35,540 nt of DNA. Source: Rhodospirillales bacterium (GTDB lineage: Bacteria > Pseudomonadota > Alphaproteobacteria > Rhodospirillales > Magnetovibrionaceae). The notes under the pieces were generated by a model. It was not told where the DNA came from. It saw only the letters and a program-made list of their open reading frames with translations, and made no database searches. Position numbers and translations under genes: made by a program. Positions within the stretch are counted from its first letter, which is position 1; each line of letters begins with the position of its first letter. Of this stretch, positions 21,815 through 35,540 are shown in pieces. The DNA is taken from NCBI GenBank assembly GCA_024653965.1, contig JANLGW010000131.1, positions 1 to 35,540 on the forward strand, read 5' to 3'.

Positions 21815-22085
21815 GCTTGCTTTTTGCGGCAAATTTTGGTATATTTTCCTATACCCTTGAGCGGGGTTCCGCTATGGGGTCTGTGGGTGTTTCGCGGTTG
21901 TCAAATATCGTCGATTTTGTGCAAAAAACGGTGGTTTTTATATCAAAAATGCCCCTGATTTTGCACAGTTTAAAAAATTAGTTCTTTGAAAATAAAAGAG
22001 AAAAGTGGTTTCGTTTCGTCACTTTTTTTTACGTTTGCGCCTTTTAGGGGCGGACGGGCGAAAAAGAGGGGGAAATGAGGACCAA
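21815..22085 (+). repeat. 271-bp intergenic repeat, copy A
   Basis: Matches 35149-35419 in inverted orientation over 271 bases with about 30 differences by eye (near 89% identity). It opens with TTGCTT (21817-21822), a 17-base spacer and TATATT (21840-21845), a sigma70-like promoter kept in both copies. A long unchanged block (about 21900-21932) and AGTTCTTTGAAAATAAAAGA (21980-21999; one base differs from copy B) follow. The latter resembles boxA antitermination signals of rRNA leaders. A reading frame (LERG...SNIVDFVQK...KMPL) ends at the same TAG in both copies, but most substitutions in it change the amino acid, so coding is unlikely. The gap 21668-22210 otherwise holds no gene. Confidence 0.85.
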
Positions 22086-22231: not shown

Positions 22232-22253
22232 CATGTCCATAAGGGTGCCCGCC

Positions 22254-22484
22254 ATGACCCAGACCACCGTGTTCAAGTCTAATAAGACCCAAGCCATTCG
22301 TCTGGCCAAGGCGGTGGCGTTTCCCGAACATGTTAAAGAGGTCGACGTGGTCAAGGTCGGCTCCGCCCGGCTCGTCACCCCGGTGGGGGGCTCATGGGAC
22401 GCCTTCTTCGACGGCCCACAAACGAGCGACGATTTTCTCACCGCCCGCGCCCAGCCCACCCCCCAGGAGCGCGAGACGATCTAA
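22254..22484 (+). CDS. vapB: VapB-type antitoxin (AbrB-like)
   Basis: 76 residues from ATG 22254, with AAGGGTG about nine bases upstream. The ATG at 22233 lies within the promoter repeat and lacks a Shine-Dalgarno. The N-terminus (MTQTTVFKSNKTQAIRLAKAVAFPEHVKEVDVV) is the swapped-hairpin AbrB/SpoVT fold of VapB: the FKSNKTQAIRLPK-type signature. The C-terminus (WDAFFDGPQTSDDFLTARAQPTPQERE) is the toxin-binding tail. The TAA stop is directly followed by the vapC GTG start. Confidence 0.92.
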   Translation: MTQTTVFKSNKTQAIRLAKAVAFPEHVKEVDVVKVGSARLVTPVGGSWDAFFDGPQTSDDFLTARAQPTPQERETI

Positions 22485-22883
22485 GTGCTCAAATACCTGC
22501 TCGACACCGACATCTGCATTTACGCCATCAAGGCGCGACCCGAGAGCGTGCGCGCCGCCTTCAACGCCAACGCTGGGCGCATGGCAATCTCTGCCGTGAC
22601 GCTCTATGAACTGGCTTTCGGCGCGGAAAACTCACAAAATGTGGAACGCAACTTAGGCGTCGTCGAAGCGTTCGCCGCGCGGCTCGAAGTCCTGCCCTTC
22701 GACGCTGCCGCCGCCGTCCAGGCCGGACAAATCCGCGCCGAACTGGCACGCGCCGGAACGCCCATCGGTGCATATGATCTGATGATCGCCGGGCACGCCC
22801 GCGCGCAAGGGCTGGTTCTCGTCACTAATAATGGGCGCGAGTTCGAGCGAGTGGCTGGACTTAGAATCGAGAATTGGGCTTGA
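22485..22883 (+). CDS. vapC: VapC PIN-domain ribonuclease toxin
   Basis: 132 residues. The GTG start at 22485 touches the vapB stop, so translation is coupled. PIN-domain acidic residues for Mg2+ are present: Asp7 (LLDTDICIYAIK), Glu42 (TLYELAFGAE) and Asp98 (GAYDLMIAGHARAQGL), with the closing VTNNGREFERVAGLRIENW. VapC toxins cut tRNA or rRNA at specific sites; the target is unknown here. The frame is intact, so the pair is probably active. It is tucked between the 271-bp repeat and accA, where it converges with accA. Confidence 0.94.
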   Translation: MLKYLLDTDICIYAIKARPESVRAAFNANAGRMAISAVTLYELAFGAENSQNVERNLGVVEAFAARLEVLPFDAAAAVQAGQIRAELARAGTPIGAYDLMIAGHARAQGLVLVTNNGREFERVAGLRIENWA

Positions 22884-23971: not shown

Positions 23972-24940
23972 TCAATTCCCGGCCAGCGGGTGCGCCGTTT
24001 GCACCAAGCGCTTCAGGCGTTCATCCAAAACGTGGGTGTAAATCTGGGTGGTGGAGATGTCGGAATGGCCCAACATCTGCTGTAAGGCGCGCAAATCCGC
24101 GCCATGCGCCAACAAATGACTGGCGAAGGAATGGCGCAAAACGTGGGGCGAAACCCGCGCCGGGTCCAAATCCGCCTCGACGGCCAATTCCTTCAACAGT
24201 TGAGCAAAGCGCGCCCGGGTGAGGTAACCCTGATGGGCGCGGGAAGGAAACAAATAAGGCGAATCCTTCGCCCCCCCCTTTGCGCCCCCCTTTGCGCTTT
24301 TGCTTTCCCCTTTAGGCAAAAAACGCGCTCGCACGCCTAAATATTCAACGATGGCGTCCTGAGCCGGTTCGGAAAGCGGCACCATGCGCTCTTTGCCACC
24401 CTTGCCACGCACCACCAACATCAGGCCATCACGCGTCACCGCCCGCAACGGCAGGCCCACCAGTTCCGACACCCTGAGCCCGGTGGCATAGAGCACCTCC
24501 ATCAACGCCACCAGACGTTTGCCATCGGCGCCCGCATGGTTGGCGGCGCTGACAAGCAACCGGTCGACTTCTGCTTCGGACAAATATTTGGGCAACGACC
24601 GCCCGGCCTTGGGCGCGTCAATAATAGTGGTGGGATCATCCTCGCGCAGGCGCTCGGAAAACAAAAAGCGAAAGAATTGGCGCAACGCCGAAAGACGTCT
24701 GGCCTGGGTGCGCGGCGCCATGCCGCGACCGGTCAAATGTTTGAGATAGGCGCGGATCAACGCGGCATTTGCATCTTGGGGTGAGTGGCCTTGTTTGCTG
24801 GCAAAAGCGGCAAAGTCGGCCAGATCGCGACGATAGCCTTCCAGCGTATTGGCCGCTGCGCCGCGTTCGGCGGCCAGCATTTCCAAAAACATCTCCACAT
24901 CGCGTGGCAATGCTGCGGTAAGGGTGGCGCGACGACCCAT
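23972..24940 (-). CDS. xerD: tyrosine recombinase XerD
   Basis: 322 residues from ATG 24938-24940; a GTG four codons earlier is possible. It resolves chromosome dimers with XerC at dif. An N-terminal SAM-like core-binding domain ([25 protein letters not shown]) precedes the catalytic domain with Arg156 ([10 protein letters not shown]), Lys near [11 protein letters not shown], His266/Arg269 ([14 protein letters not shown]), His292 (LGHSDIS) and Tyr301 (TTQIYTHV), numbering from this start. An unusual insert of about 15 residues ([17 protein letters not shown]) before the SPYLFPSR strand is encoded by a 12-bp repeat and begins beside a run of eight G on the coding strand. Confidence 0.95.
24271..24296 (-). 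repeat. C8 run and two 12-bp tandem units in xerD
   Basis: Eight C at 24271-24278 (G on the coding strand) run into two perfect copies of CCCCCCTTTGCG (24273-24284 and 24285-24296), encoding the Ala-Lys-Gly-Gly insert. Slippage in the C run would shift the frame of xerD; change in the 12-bp unit would not. Confidence 0.85.
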
Positions 24941-24961
24941 GACGACCCCCACCCCCGCCGT

Positions 24962-32172: not shown

Positions 32173-33192
32173 ATGACCGTCGCCATCAAAACCGACGAGA
32201 AAAACAAATTCCCTCTAAATGCCCCGGACATCGCCGTGGACGTGCGCCAAACCTTCGGCCTGGACGTCGACATGGAAGTTCCCGCCTTTTCCTCAGGCGA
32301 AGAACACGTGCCGGAAATCGACCCCACCTATCAGTTCGATTTCGAAACCACGCTGGCCATCTTGGCGGGTTTCAAACACAACCGCCGCGTCATGATCCAG
32401 GGTTATCACGGCACCGGCAAATCGACCCACATCGAACAGGTCGCGGCGCGCCTCAACTGGCCGACCATCCGCATCAACTTGGATTCCCACGTCAGCCGCA
32501 TCGACTTGGTGGGCAAGGACGCCATCGTGCTGCAAGACGGCAAACAGGTGACCGAGTTCCGCGAAGGCATCTTGCCGTGGGCGTTGCAACACCCGGTCGC
32601 GATGGTGTTCGACGAATACGACGCCGGACGCCCCGACGTGATGTTCGTCATTCAGCGCGTGCTTGAAGTCGAAGGAAAACTCACGTTGCTCGATCAAAGC
32701 CGCGTGATCCGCCCGCACCCGTATTTCCGGCTGTTTTCCACCACCAATACCATCGGGCTGGGCGATACCACCGGGCTCTATCACGGCACCCAGCAAATCA
32801 ACCAAGGCCAGATGGACCGCTGGAACATCGTCACCACGCTCAACTACCTGCCGCACGACGACGAAACGCGCATCGTGCTGGCCAAGGTCAAGGCTTACGA
32901 CAACGACGCCGGGCGCAAGATCGTCTCGGCCATGGTGCGCGTCGCCGACATGACCCGCGAAGGGTTCATCAACGGCGACATTTCCACCGTGATGAGCCCG
33001 CGCACCGTGCTCACCTGGGCCGAAAACGCGCAAATCTTCACCGATGTCGGCACCGCTTTCCGCATGAGCTTTTTGAACAAGTGCGACGAACTGGAACGCT
33101 CCATCGTGGCCGAGTATTACCAGCGCTGCTTCGGTGTCGACCTGCCGGGCTCGGTGGCACGCTCCGCCAAGGCGGCCAGCGAAAAAAGCTGA
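32173..33192 (+). CDS. cobS: cobaltochelatase ATPase subunit CobS
   Basis: 339 residues from ATG 32173 ([13 protein letters not shown]); a TTG four codons earlier is unlikely. CobS is the AAA+ motor that, with CobT, drives CobN to insert Co2+ into hydrogenobyrinic acid a,c-diamide in the aerobic cobalamin pathway. Walker [10 protein letters not shown] (77-85), Walker [10 protein letters not shown] (around 144-152), sensor region [18 protein letters not shown] and arginine-rich MDRWNIV. cobT follows after eight bases. cobN is not in this window. Confidence 0.96.
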
Positions 33193-33200
33193 CCCCCGCC

Positions 33201-35084
33201 ATGGCCAAGGCCGAACCCGTATCCGAAACGCTCAAGCGCGCCACCGCCGCGACGCTCAAAGCCATGTCCGGCAAACGCGGCATGACCATCGGCTTCACCC
33301 GCGGGCTGGAAGCGGCTTCCATCGGCTCCGACGTCGTCACCCTGCCCGAGCCGGAGCCTTCGTTAAGCGCTGCCGACATCAGCCGCCTGCGCGGCAATGC
33401 CGACGCCGCCGCCATGCGCCTTTATTTCCATGACCGCGCGTTGCATTTCCGCCTGACACCGCCGGGCGACGACGCCAAGCGCCTGTTCGGCGCGCTGGAA
33501 CAGGTGCGGGTCGAAGCCTTAGGATCGCGCCTTTATCCGGGCGCGGCGCAGAACCTAGCCGCCGTGCATGCGCTGAACGCCCGCGCTTATAACGACATCG
33601 AAACACGCGACATGGCGCACCTGCCCCAGGCCATGGCGCTGCTGGCGCGTGAACGCTTGAGCGGCGAGCTTTTGCCCCCGGCGGCAAAAGCGCTGGCGAA
33701 TTTGTGGCGCGATTGGCTGATGGAAAAAGCGCCGGGGCATTTGGATAAACTCGCCGCCGCGATGAACGACCAAGCCGCCTTCGCCAAGGCCGCAAACTCG
33801 ATGATGCAGGCGCTGGAACTGCTCAACGCCCTGCCCAGCGACACCCAAGAGGACAGCCAAGCCGACCAGGACGCCGAGCAACAGCCCGAAGACAGCGCCG
33901 AAGGCAAAGACGATGCCCAAGACACTCAAGGCGAAGGCGACATGGAAGCCATGGGCGCGATGGGCGCCGAAAGTCTCGCCGCCGATGGCATCGAAGGCCT
34001 GGACGGCGACGCCGGTTTCGAAGACATGATGATGGGTGGTGAAAACCCCGCCGGACCGACCGAGCGCGACGACGCTTGGCCCGCCAACGAACCCGCCCCG
34101 TTTGCCTATCGCGCCTATACCACGCGCTTCGATGAAATCGTGGCGGCGGAAGACCTCAGCGAGCCCGTGGAGCTTACCCGCCTGCGCGAACAGTTGGACC
34201 GCCAGTTGGATAAACTGCAAGGCGTGGTGGCGAAGCTCGCCAACCGCTTGCAGCGCCGCCTGCTGGCCAAACAAATGCGCTCGTGGGAGTTCGATCTGGA
34301 AGAAGGCATGTTGGATGCCGCCCGGCTTTCGCGCGTGGTGATCGACCCTTACGCGGCCTTGTCGTTCAAGGAAGAAAAGGACGCCGATTTCCGCGATACC
34401 GTGGTGACGCTGCTGATCGACAATTCCGGCTCCATGCGCGGGCGGCCCATCACCATCGCCGCCACCAGCGCCGATATTTTAGCCCGCACCTTAGAACGCT
34501 GCGGTGTGAAGGTGGAGATTTTGGGTTTCACCACGCGCGCGTGGAAGGGCGGAAAATCCCGCGAACACTGGGCTGAACACGGTAAAGCCGAACGCCCCGG
34601 AAGGCTCAACGATCTGCGCCATATTATTTATAAGGGTGCCGACGTGCCGTGGCGGCGGGCGCACAAAAACTTAGGCCTGATGCTCAAAGAAGGCATCTTG
34701 AAGGAAAACATCGACGGCGAGGCGCTGCTGTGGGCGCACAACCGCCTGCTGGCGAGGACCGAACAGCGCCGTATTTTGATGGTCATTTCCGACGGCGCGC
34801 CGGTGGACGACGCCACCTTGTCCTCCAACCCCGGCAACTATCTGGAACGGCACCTGCGCGACGTGATCGAATGGATCGAAAACAAATCGAGCGTGGAACT
34901 GATCGCCATCGGCATCGGCCACGACGTCACGCGTTATTACCACCGCGCGGTAACGCTCTTGGACGCCGAAGACTTGGGCGGCACCATCATGAGCCAACTC
35001 GCCGACCTGTTCGACGAAGAACCCAAACGCGGGGCGGGTGTTAAAACGGGGACGGGTATGGCGCGAAAGCGGGCGGGACGCTGA
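33201..35084 (+). CDS. cobT: cobaltochelatase subunit CobT
   Basis: 627 residues from ATG 33201 ([23 protein letters not shown]), eight bases after cobS; an open frame upstream overlaps cobS and is not CobT. N-terminal domain (33201 to ~33800), an acidic Gln/Glu/Asp-rich linker ([20 protein letters not shown] at about residues 216-235), then a C-terminal von Willebrand A domain with the MIDAS motif DNSGSM (Asp407, Ser409, Ser411), VISDGAP and [11 protein letters not shown]. It forms a hexamer with CobS. The gene ends ~30 bases before a REP-like hairpin. Confidence 0.96.
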
Positions 35085-35148: not shown

Positions 35149-35419
35149 TTGGTCCTCATTTCCCCCTCTTTTTTCACCCATCCGCCCTCAAAAGGCGCAA
35201 CCGTAAAAAAAGTGACGAAACGAAACCACTTTTATCTTTTATTTTCAAAGAACTAACTTTTTATTTTGTACAAAACCAGGGGCATTTTTGTCATCAAAAC
35301 CCCTGTTTTTTGCACAAAATCGACGATATTTGACAACCGTGAAACACCGCCCGACCCCTTAACGAACCCCCGCTCAAGGGAATAGGAAAATATACCAGAA
35401 TTTGCCGCAAAAAGCAAGC
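35149..35419 (-). repeat. 271-bp intergenic repeat, copy B (inverted)
   Basis: Minus-strand copy of 21815-22085, same length. The promoter-like pair TTGCTT (35417-35412) and TATATT (35394-35389) keeps its 17-base spacing, and the AGTTCTTTGAAAATAAAAGA block is present with one change. The differences are scattered, with small length changes in T/A runs. The two copies bracket the 13 kb from vapBC to cobT in opposite orientation. Confidence 0.85.
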
Positions 35420-35436
35420 ACAACGTTGAAATGTTC

Positions 35437-35501
35437 ACCACAGAGGACACAGAGTTCACAGAGGATAATTTCAACTCTGTGGTCTCTGTGCACTCTGTGG
35501 T
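35437..35501. repeat. CACAGAG inverted repeat built from 9-bp units
   Basis: The left arm (35437-35463) is three 9-bp units, ACCACAGAG, GACACAGAG, TTCACAGAG. The right arm (35475-35501) is the complement type, CTCTGTGGT, CTCTGTGCA, CTCTGTGGT. Complementarity is almost complete over 27 bases with an 11-base loop. ACCACAGAG-like repeats are known from many bacterial genomes as intergenic elements. No coding potential is seen up to the window end (35540). Confidence 0.75.
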
Positions 35502-35540
35502 TAAAAATAAACGGGCGCTTTTCCGGCTGCGTAAGTAAAC

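Follow-up and report, generated by a model that had tools for sequence, protein, structure and literature searches.

Trans-encoded small RNAs (sRNAs) of Alphaproteobacteria form families of paralogous, free-standing intergenic genes, which usually have few paralogues. Modular interspersed repeats of intergenic regions, some of them transcribed, are represented by the BOX elements of Streptococcus pneumoniae and the Correia elements of Neisseria. In Coxiella burnetii, the QMITE1 and QMITE2 families comprise about 50 dispersed copies of 150–400 bp per family and genome; they have been described as MITEs flanked by direct repeats, some of them bear sigma-70 promoters and are transcribed as small RNAs, and REP-type repeats are involved (PMC5896051). 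The units described below differ from QMITEs in that neither inverted ends nor direct repeats have been found, transcription is only predicted, and each unit has a promoter at one end and a U-tract segment at the other, which also flank an uncharacterised ORF. Like the alphaproteobacterial sRNA genes, they are intergenic paralogues and probably free-standing, but 36 copies in one genome is much more than is usual for such families, and no Rfam family matches the element above its gathering threshold. The likeness to BOX and Correia elements, by description only, lies in the modular intergenic organization, whereas the units here are bracketed by a sigma-70 promoter and a 3′ U-tract.

The window, i.e., the whole analysed stretch of 35,540 nucleotides from a Rhodospirillales bacterium, contains two inverted copies of a 271-base element, copy 1 at 21815–22085 (plus strand) and copy 2 at 35149–35419 (minus strand), which are 89% identical over their length, a similarity far above chance (E = 4e-98). 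Both were found where the original prediction had placed them, yet what it had framed as a pair is actually a family. The genome-wide search for further copies that it had proposed was carried out on the genome of the window (G000, an assembly of 2.99 Mb in 153 contigs) and gave 32 matches at the DNA level, 13 of them near full length with 81–100% identity. The covariance model, likewise proposed, was built as a sequence-only model (R1) from the last 65 nt of the unit and finds 36 places in G000 at E below 1e-6, the E-values of this model being rough.

The copies are intergenic and follow a common plan: a sigma-70-like promoter (TTGxxx-17-TATATWTTCCTATT), a variable body, and a 3′ segment (TTGAAAA..AAAATTGGCTTCGTTYCGTCAC-T7-10). 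In the long and short classes the promoter reads TTGCTTTTT..TGG-TATATTTTCCTATT, and in the most divergent copies TTGACAAATT..GC-TATATATTCCTATT. The units end with TTGAAAA.AAA.GA.AAAANTGGCTTCGTTYCGTCAC, after which nearly all copies have a run of 7–10 T residues that is not accompanied by a conserved hairpin. Body length ranges between about 60 and 230 nt, and the bodies of divergent copies cannot be aligned; no conserved or shared reading frame has been seen in the short copies, whose bodies differ in both length and sequence. The boundary in common with the divergent copies runs from the −35 box to the T-run.

In copy 1, the −35 box TTGCTT (21817–21822, plus strand), a motif common to all long copies and tied genome-wide to the 3′ segment, is followed by the −10 box TATATT together with a conserved TTCCTA (21840–21851), which is near-invariant in 13 copies, recurs in the divergent ones, and is enriched relative to control windows. 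The corresponding elements of copy 2, read from its sequence and the comparison of the 13 long copies, occupy 35412–35417 and 35383–35394 (minus strand). The conserved 3′ segment of copy 1 (21967–22030, plus strand) consists of a boxA-like word (21982–21999), an A-tract, GGTTTCGTTTCGTCAC, and T8, and is supported by the covariance-model match at 21967–22029 and by the alignment across three genomes; that of copy 2 (35205–35266, minus strand), also a covariance-model match, ends in T7. If the start is set from the −10 box and the end from the T-run, copy 1 is predicted to specify a non-coding RNA of about 175–180 nt (21852–22030, plus strand), and copy 2 its counterpart at 35205–35382 (minus strand), which would be convergent with cobT (33081–35084, plus strand). 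The tails beyond the T-run (22031–22085, plus strand, in copy 1; 35149–35204, minus strand, in copy 2) have equivalents only among the long copies and in a few of the short ones.

Conservation along the unit is uneven, as had been claimed from the two window copies and as the pairwise comparison of the 13 near-full-length G000 copies now shows with greater sharpness, region by region. Divergence is lowest in the A-tract, loop, and U-tract (0.5%), followed by the promoter hexamers with TTCC (2.6%), the boxA-like stretch (4.7%), and an internal island of the long copies, GTCAAATATCGTCGATTTTGTGCAAAAAAC (21900–21932, plus strand, about 5%). It rises to 14% elsewhere in the middle and to 26% in both the 5′ body and the tail after the T-run. 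Since passive repeats would be expected to drift evenly, the ends and the island appear to be either under selection or renewed by ongoing copying.

The two ends of the unit are closely linked. In a 1.31 Mb sample of G000, about 230 kb of which had been chosen because it contains copies, each of the 32 promoter motifs that have TTG in the −35 box has a 3′ segment within 900 nt downstream, and 34 of the 35 3′ segments are preceded by this promoter or one closely resembling it, the remaining one lacking a recognisable promoter of this kind. Promoter sites scoring at least 10 are found in 21 of 23 units of a relative, G049 (5 of 267 control windows); for G000 the figures are 16 of 34 units and 11 of 583 control windows. 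When two motifs are so tightly linked although the distance between them varies, the best reading is that they mark the beginning and the end of a transcription unit. At the sequence level, the promoter-like start of the original prediction is upheld as a sigma-70-like motif that is enriched in the units and linked exclusively to the 3′ segment, and its alternative of a transcribed non-coding unit finds good support in the linked ends, the varying body, the intergenic location, and the lack of a conserved ORF in the short copies. The TTCCTA element of the promoter may serve as an operator. A palindrome-like sequence, CCTAAATTAGG or TTCCTAAAATAGGAA, recurs within the promoter spacer in copies of G049 and in the divergent copies of G000, and upstream of the −35 box in copies from another relative, G098; it may represent a shared operator.

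As to the 3′ segment, the long copies can form two hairpins, one over the boxA-like word (UCUUU/AAAGA) and the other ahead of the U-tract (AAAAGUG/CACUUUU). Neither survives across lineages, so the segment is conserved as a linear sequence. A conserved RNA fold was ruled out here: RNAalifold found no consensus pairs among 49 sequences, and the folding energies were the same as those of shuffled sequences, with a mean z-score near zero. Within the long copies, compensatory changes affect 2 of 37 predicted pairs, which is too few to count. Given the lack of a consensus fold and the shuffle-like energies, the 3′ segment outside the long copies is not a classical strong-hairpin terminator. In three G049 units (L184, L180, and L190), two 3′ segments follow each other in tandem at a distance of about 100 nt, and no promoter separates them, an arrangement that would be odd if the first one always terminated transcription. 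The G098 copies L118–L131 possess a conserved tail, AATCAATGACTTCCGCGCACCG, 10–40 nt past the T-run, and its reverse complement resembles the CATTGATTT word that precedes the T-run in other copies.

The reading that we favour, and hold to be somewhat on the probable side, is that each unit is a free-standing member of a multicopy family of predicted sRNA genes. Transcription, 3′-end formation, and action in trans of the units are what we infer from this organization. RNA polymerase would start about 6 nt past the TATATT box, which in the window copies means near 21852 and 35382, and stop at or near the T7-10 tract. The RNA so produced would measure about 100–240 nt, and about 178 nt in the case of the window copies. 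The common 3′ end could act as a shared site for termination or for an RNA chaperone, while the variable bodies would give every copy a specificity of its own. The GGYUUCGUUYCGUCAC segment might pair with, or titrate, a partner common to the RNAs and to the mRNA of the protein described below. A scan of translation starts for complementarity to this segment gave no convincing targets: only a slight enrichment of A-rich heptamers appeared, without a composition control, so target pairing by the segment was not retained. A short leader peptide beginning at an NTG before TCGTTTCGTCAC was also considered and ruled out on inspection by an indel in the frame in L034 and L036.

The same two ends also flank a protein-coding gene. 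In C35 and C103 of G000 and in C15 of G049, the promoter lies about 600 nt upstream and is followed by an ORF of 163–191 codons, whose stop lies at the 3′ segment or immediately ahead of it; a fourth ORF-bearing unit, with a degraded end, is present in G098. The ORFs bracketed by the promoter and the 3′ segment of a unit are L157:4049-4618 (minus strand), L163:3451-4026 (plus strand), L099:554-1042 (minus strand), and L124:3256-3771 (minus strand). Their products of about 190 amino acids are 39–53% identical and share the pattern ...STGPKT...NALRHGL...(I/L)WWRL.R...LD.LGRYE.RLERA..., for which we call them NALRHGL proteins. They have no match in Pfam, NCBIfam, or PHROGs, transposases included; a distant relative is one protein from a Planctomyces plasmid, and the single-sequence structure model has a mean pLDDT of 53 and is not usable. 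The 1.31 Mb of G000 contain only two such ORFs, the two bracketed ones, an association that is strong but not unbiased, since about 230 kb of the sample was fetched for its copies. Judging by the shared ends, the short units seem to be siblings of the NALRHGL gene that lack its ORF, and the bracketed units offer an entry point to a protein family unnamed by the three databases.

Related units occur in some relatives from two other families of the order (up to 28 copies). The exact pattern of the 3′ segment is present in 5 of 317 genomes of the order (16 matches in G000, 16 in G098, 8 in G049, 3 in G063, and 1 in G099), and the reversed control pattern gave none across the same 317 genomes. Searches with the models recovered 23 copies in G049, 28 in G098 (some of them weak, the number of copies there being at least 16), and six each, mostly weak, in G110 and G063. 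The genomes are mostly draft assemblies, that of G098 being about 8% contaminated. The units of G049, G098, G063, and G110, which belong to other families of the order, have the same architecture as those of G000; in G063, the full plan of promoter, boxA, body, and GGGTTCGTTCCTTCACTTTTT can be traced by eye. No unit was found in four congeners and thirteen other genomes of the same family, some of which are incomplete, and, with strict filters, 385 genomes from across the class yielded no other match. In GTDB r220, the pattern matches are dominated by JABMOQ01, “Rhodospirillaceae bacterium bin.380”, and the isolated single matches in unrelated taxa correspond, by our own estimate, to about the number expected by chance. 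Taken as a whole, the units point to a family of dispersed RNA genes, or of mobile units, that had not been described before.

Mobility competes seriously with the sRNA reading, although we regard it as rather unlikely. The units would then belong to a mobile family without terminal inverted repeats. Its autonomous form would be the ORF-bearing units, with the NALRHGL protein working on the two ends, and internal deletion would have produced the 30-odd short units, MITE-like derivatives that still move in trans. Such a scheme would suit the ends held in common by ORF-bearing and ORF-less units, the many dispersed copies, 13 of which show 81–90% identity, the very patchy distribution, with absence from congeners yet presence in separate families, and the frequent location of copies beside REP-like and CACAGAG repeats. 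The REP-like hairpins, which had been thought to end the element, do follow the window copies and several others but are missing after some, and so are not part of it. On inspection, the two ends are unrelated and form no terminal inverted repeats, and no target-site duplication is apparent, the mean longest flanking repeat being 3.8 against 3.6 in the control. The encoded protein matches neither a transposase nor any other family in Pfam, NCBIfam, or PHROGs, and drift after insertion should be even along the unit, whereas 0.5–2.6% is observed at the ends and 26% in the body. Moreover, no related unit was found in the plasmid and phage sets or in IMG/VR; Sinorhizobium plasmids gave three matches of about 40 bases (E 0.02–0.07). 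Thus, mobility explains the patchiness and the copy number, but not the missing inverted repeats and target duplications or the uneven divergence.

The two readings can both hold, as the MITE-borne sRNAs of Coxiella illustrate (PMC5896051). A further reading, which seems unlikely to us, is a new kind of bacterial interspersed element in which the small NALRHGL protein and dozens of ORF-less RNAs share a promoter and a 3′ end. The RNAs would be partners of the protein, either non-autonomous or regulatory, and the element would spread without inverted repeats or target duplication. The roughly 36 copies, their counterparts expanded separately in a few distant relatives, and the ORF-bearing versions would make this either an unusually large family of sRNA paralogues or a mobile element, so far unrecognised, by which small-RNA genes are dispersed; if true, either reading would explain how bacteria acquire many sRNA genes at once.

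The genes around the copies, called with a simple codon-usage script, bear on another possibility, that the unit is a regulated 5′ leader or attenuator whose T-run serves as a conditional terminator and which controls the next gene by boxA-type antitermination. About half of the G000 copies, and most of the divergent ones, have a co-directional gene 28–260 nt downstream, and co-directional neighbours are as frequent there as convergent ones, so some copies could be leaders; the tandem 3′ segments of G049 and the rrn-type boxA near the 5′ end of G049 and G098 units (see below) would also fit. In G049 and G098, however, the next gene is convergent and close in 27 of 37 cases (p = 0.008), often 30–90 nt from the T-run, which suits free-standing RNA genes better than mRNA leaders, and copy 2 of the window is itself convergent with cobT. 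With no common family apparent among the downstream genes and no conserved alternative fold, the leader explanation is very improbable.

The original prediction had also proposed that the element might be copied from the leader of an rRNA operon together with the antitermination site. The likeness to a boxA (NusB-S10) site consists in the boxA-type word, TTCTTTGA in the window copies. In the rrn leaders of Azospirillum, Tistrella, and Skermanella, boxA (TTCTTTGACA or TCTTTGACA) is located upstream of the 16S gene; these other alphaproteobacteria carry the comparison because no 16S gene is readable in this assembly or in the relatives. The window word TTCTTTGAAAATAAAAGA is instead at the opposite, 3′ end of the unit, just ahead of the last hairpin and the T-run, continues as AAATAAAAGA rather than CA..GTGAA, and degrades to YTTGA in the divergent copies; no rRNA sequence is found in the window or after the window copies, and none of the 36 G000 copies has an rrn-type boxA in its 5′ part. 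Hence, the comparison with 16S leaders that had been proposed separates the window copies from all three named leaders, and a copied rRNA leader is scarcely credible and already largely refuted. There is some truth in the idea, since units of relatives do have a 5′ boxA. Shortly after the promoter, 11 of 23 G049 units have an rrn-type boxA like GTTCTTTGACAGGGTGAATAG (3 of 321 control windows), and CTATTTGACATTCGTATAGG lies near the 5′ end in 14 of 18 G098-type units (3 of 288 control windows), these counts being post hoc, that of G098 above all, because the pattern was partly drawn from the scored sequences. G063 units also possess a 5′ boxA. Probably, the boxA-like word of the window copies is a coincidence of the 3′ segment, and real rrn-type boxA belongs to the 5′ parts of the relatives' units.

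The neighbourhood of the window copies has some features of its own. Just 3′ of copy 1, a small ORF and a PIN-domain gene form a co-directional pair (22233–22883), probably a vapBC toxin–antitoxin pair, and a tyrosine recombinase gene with Phage_integrase and SAM-like domains, XerC/D-like, is located at 23972–24952 (minus strand). Directly 5′ of copy 2, positions 35430–35510 are occupied by an interspersed repeat of the CACAGAG type (ACCACAGAGTGCACAGAGACCACAGAG...), which also precedes L007, L014, and L016.
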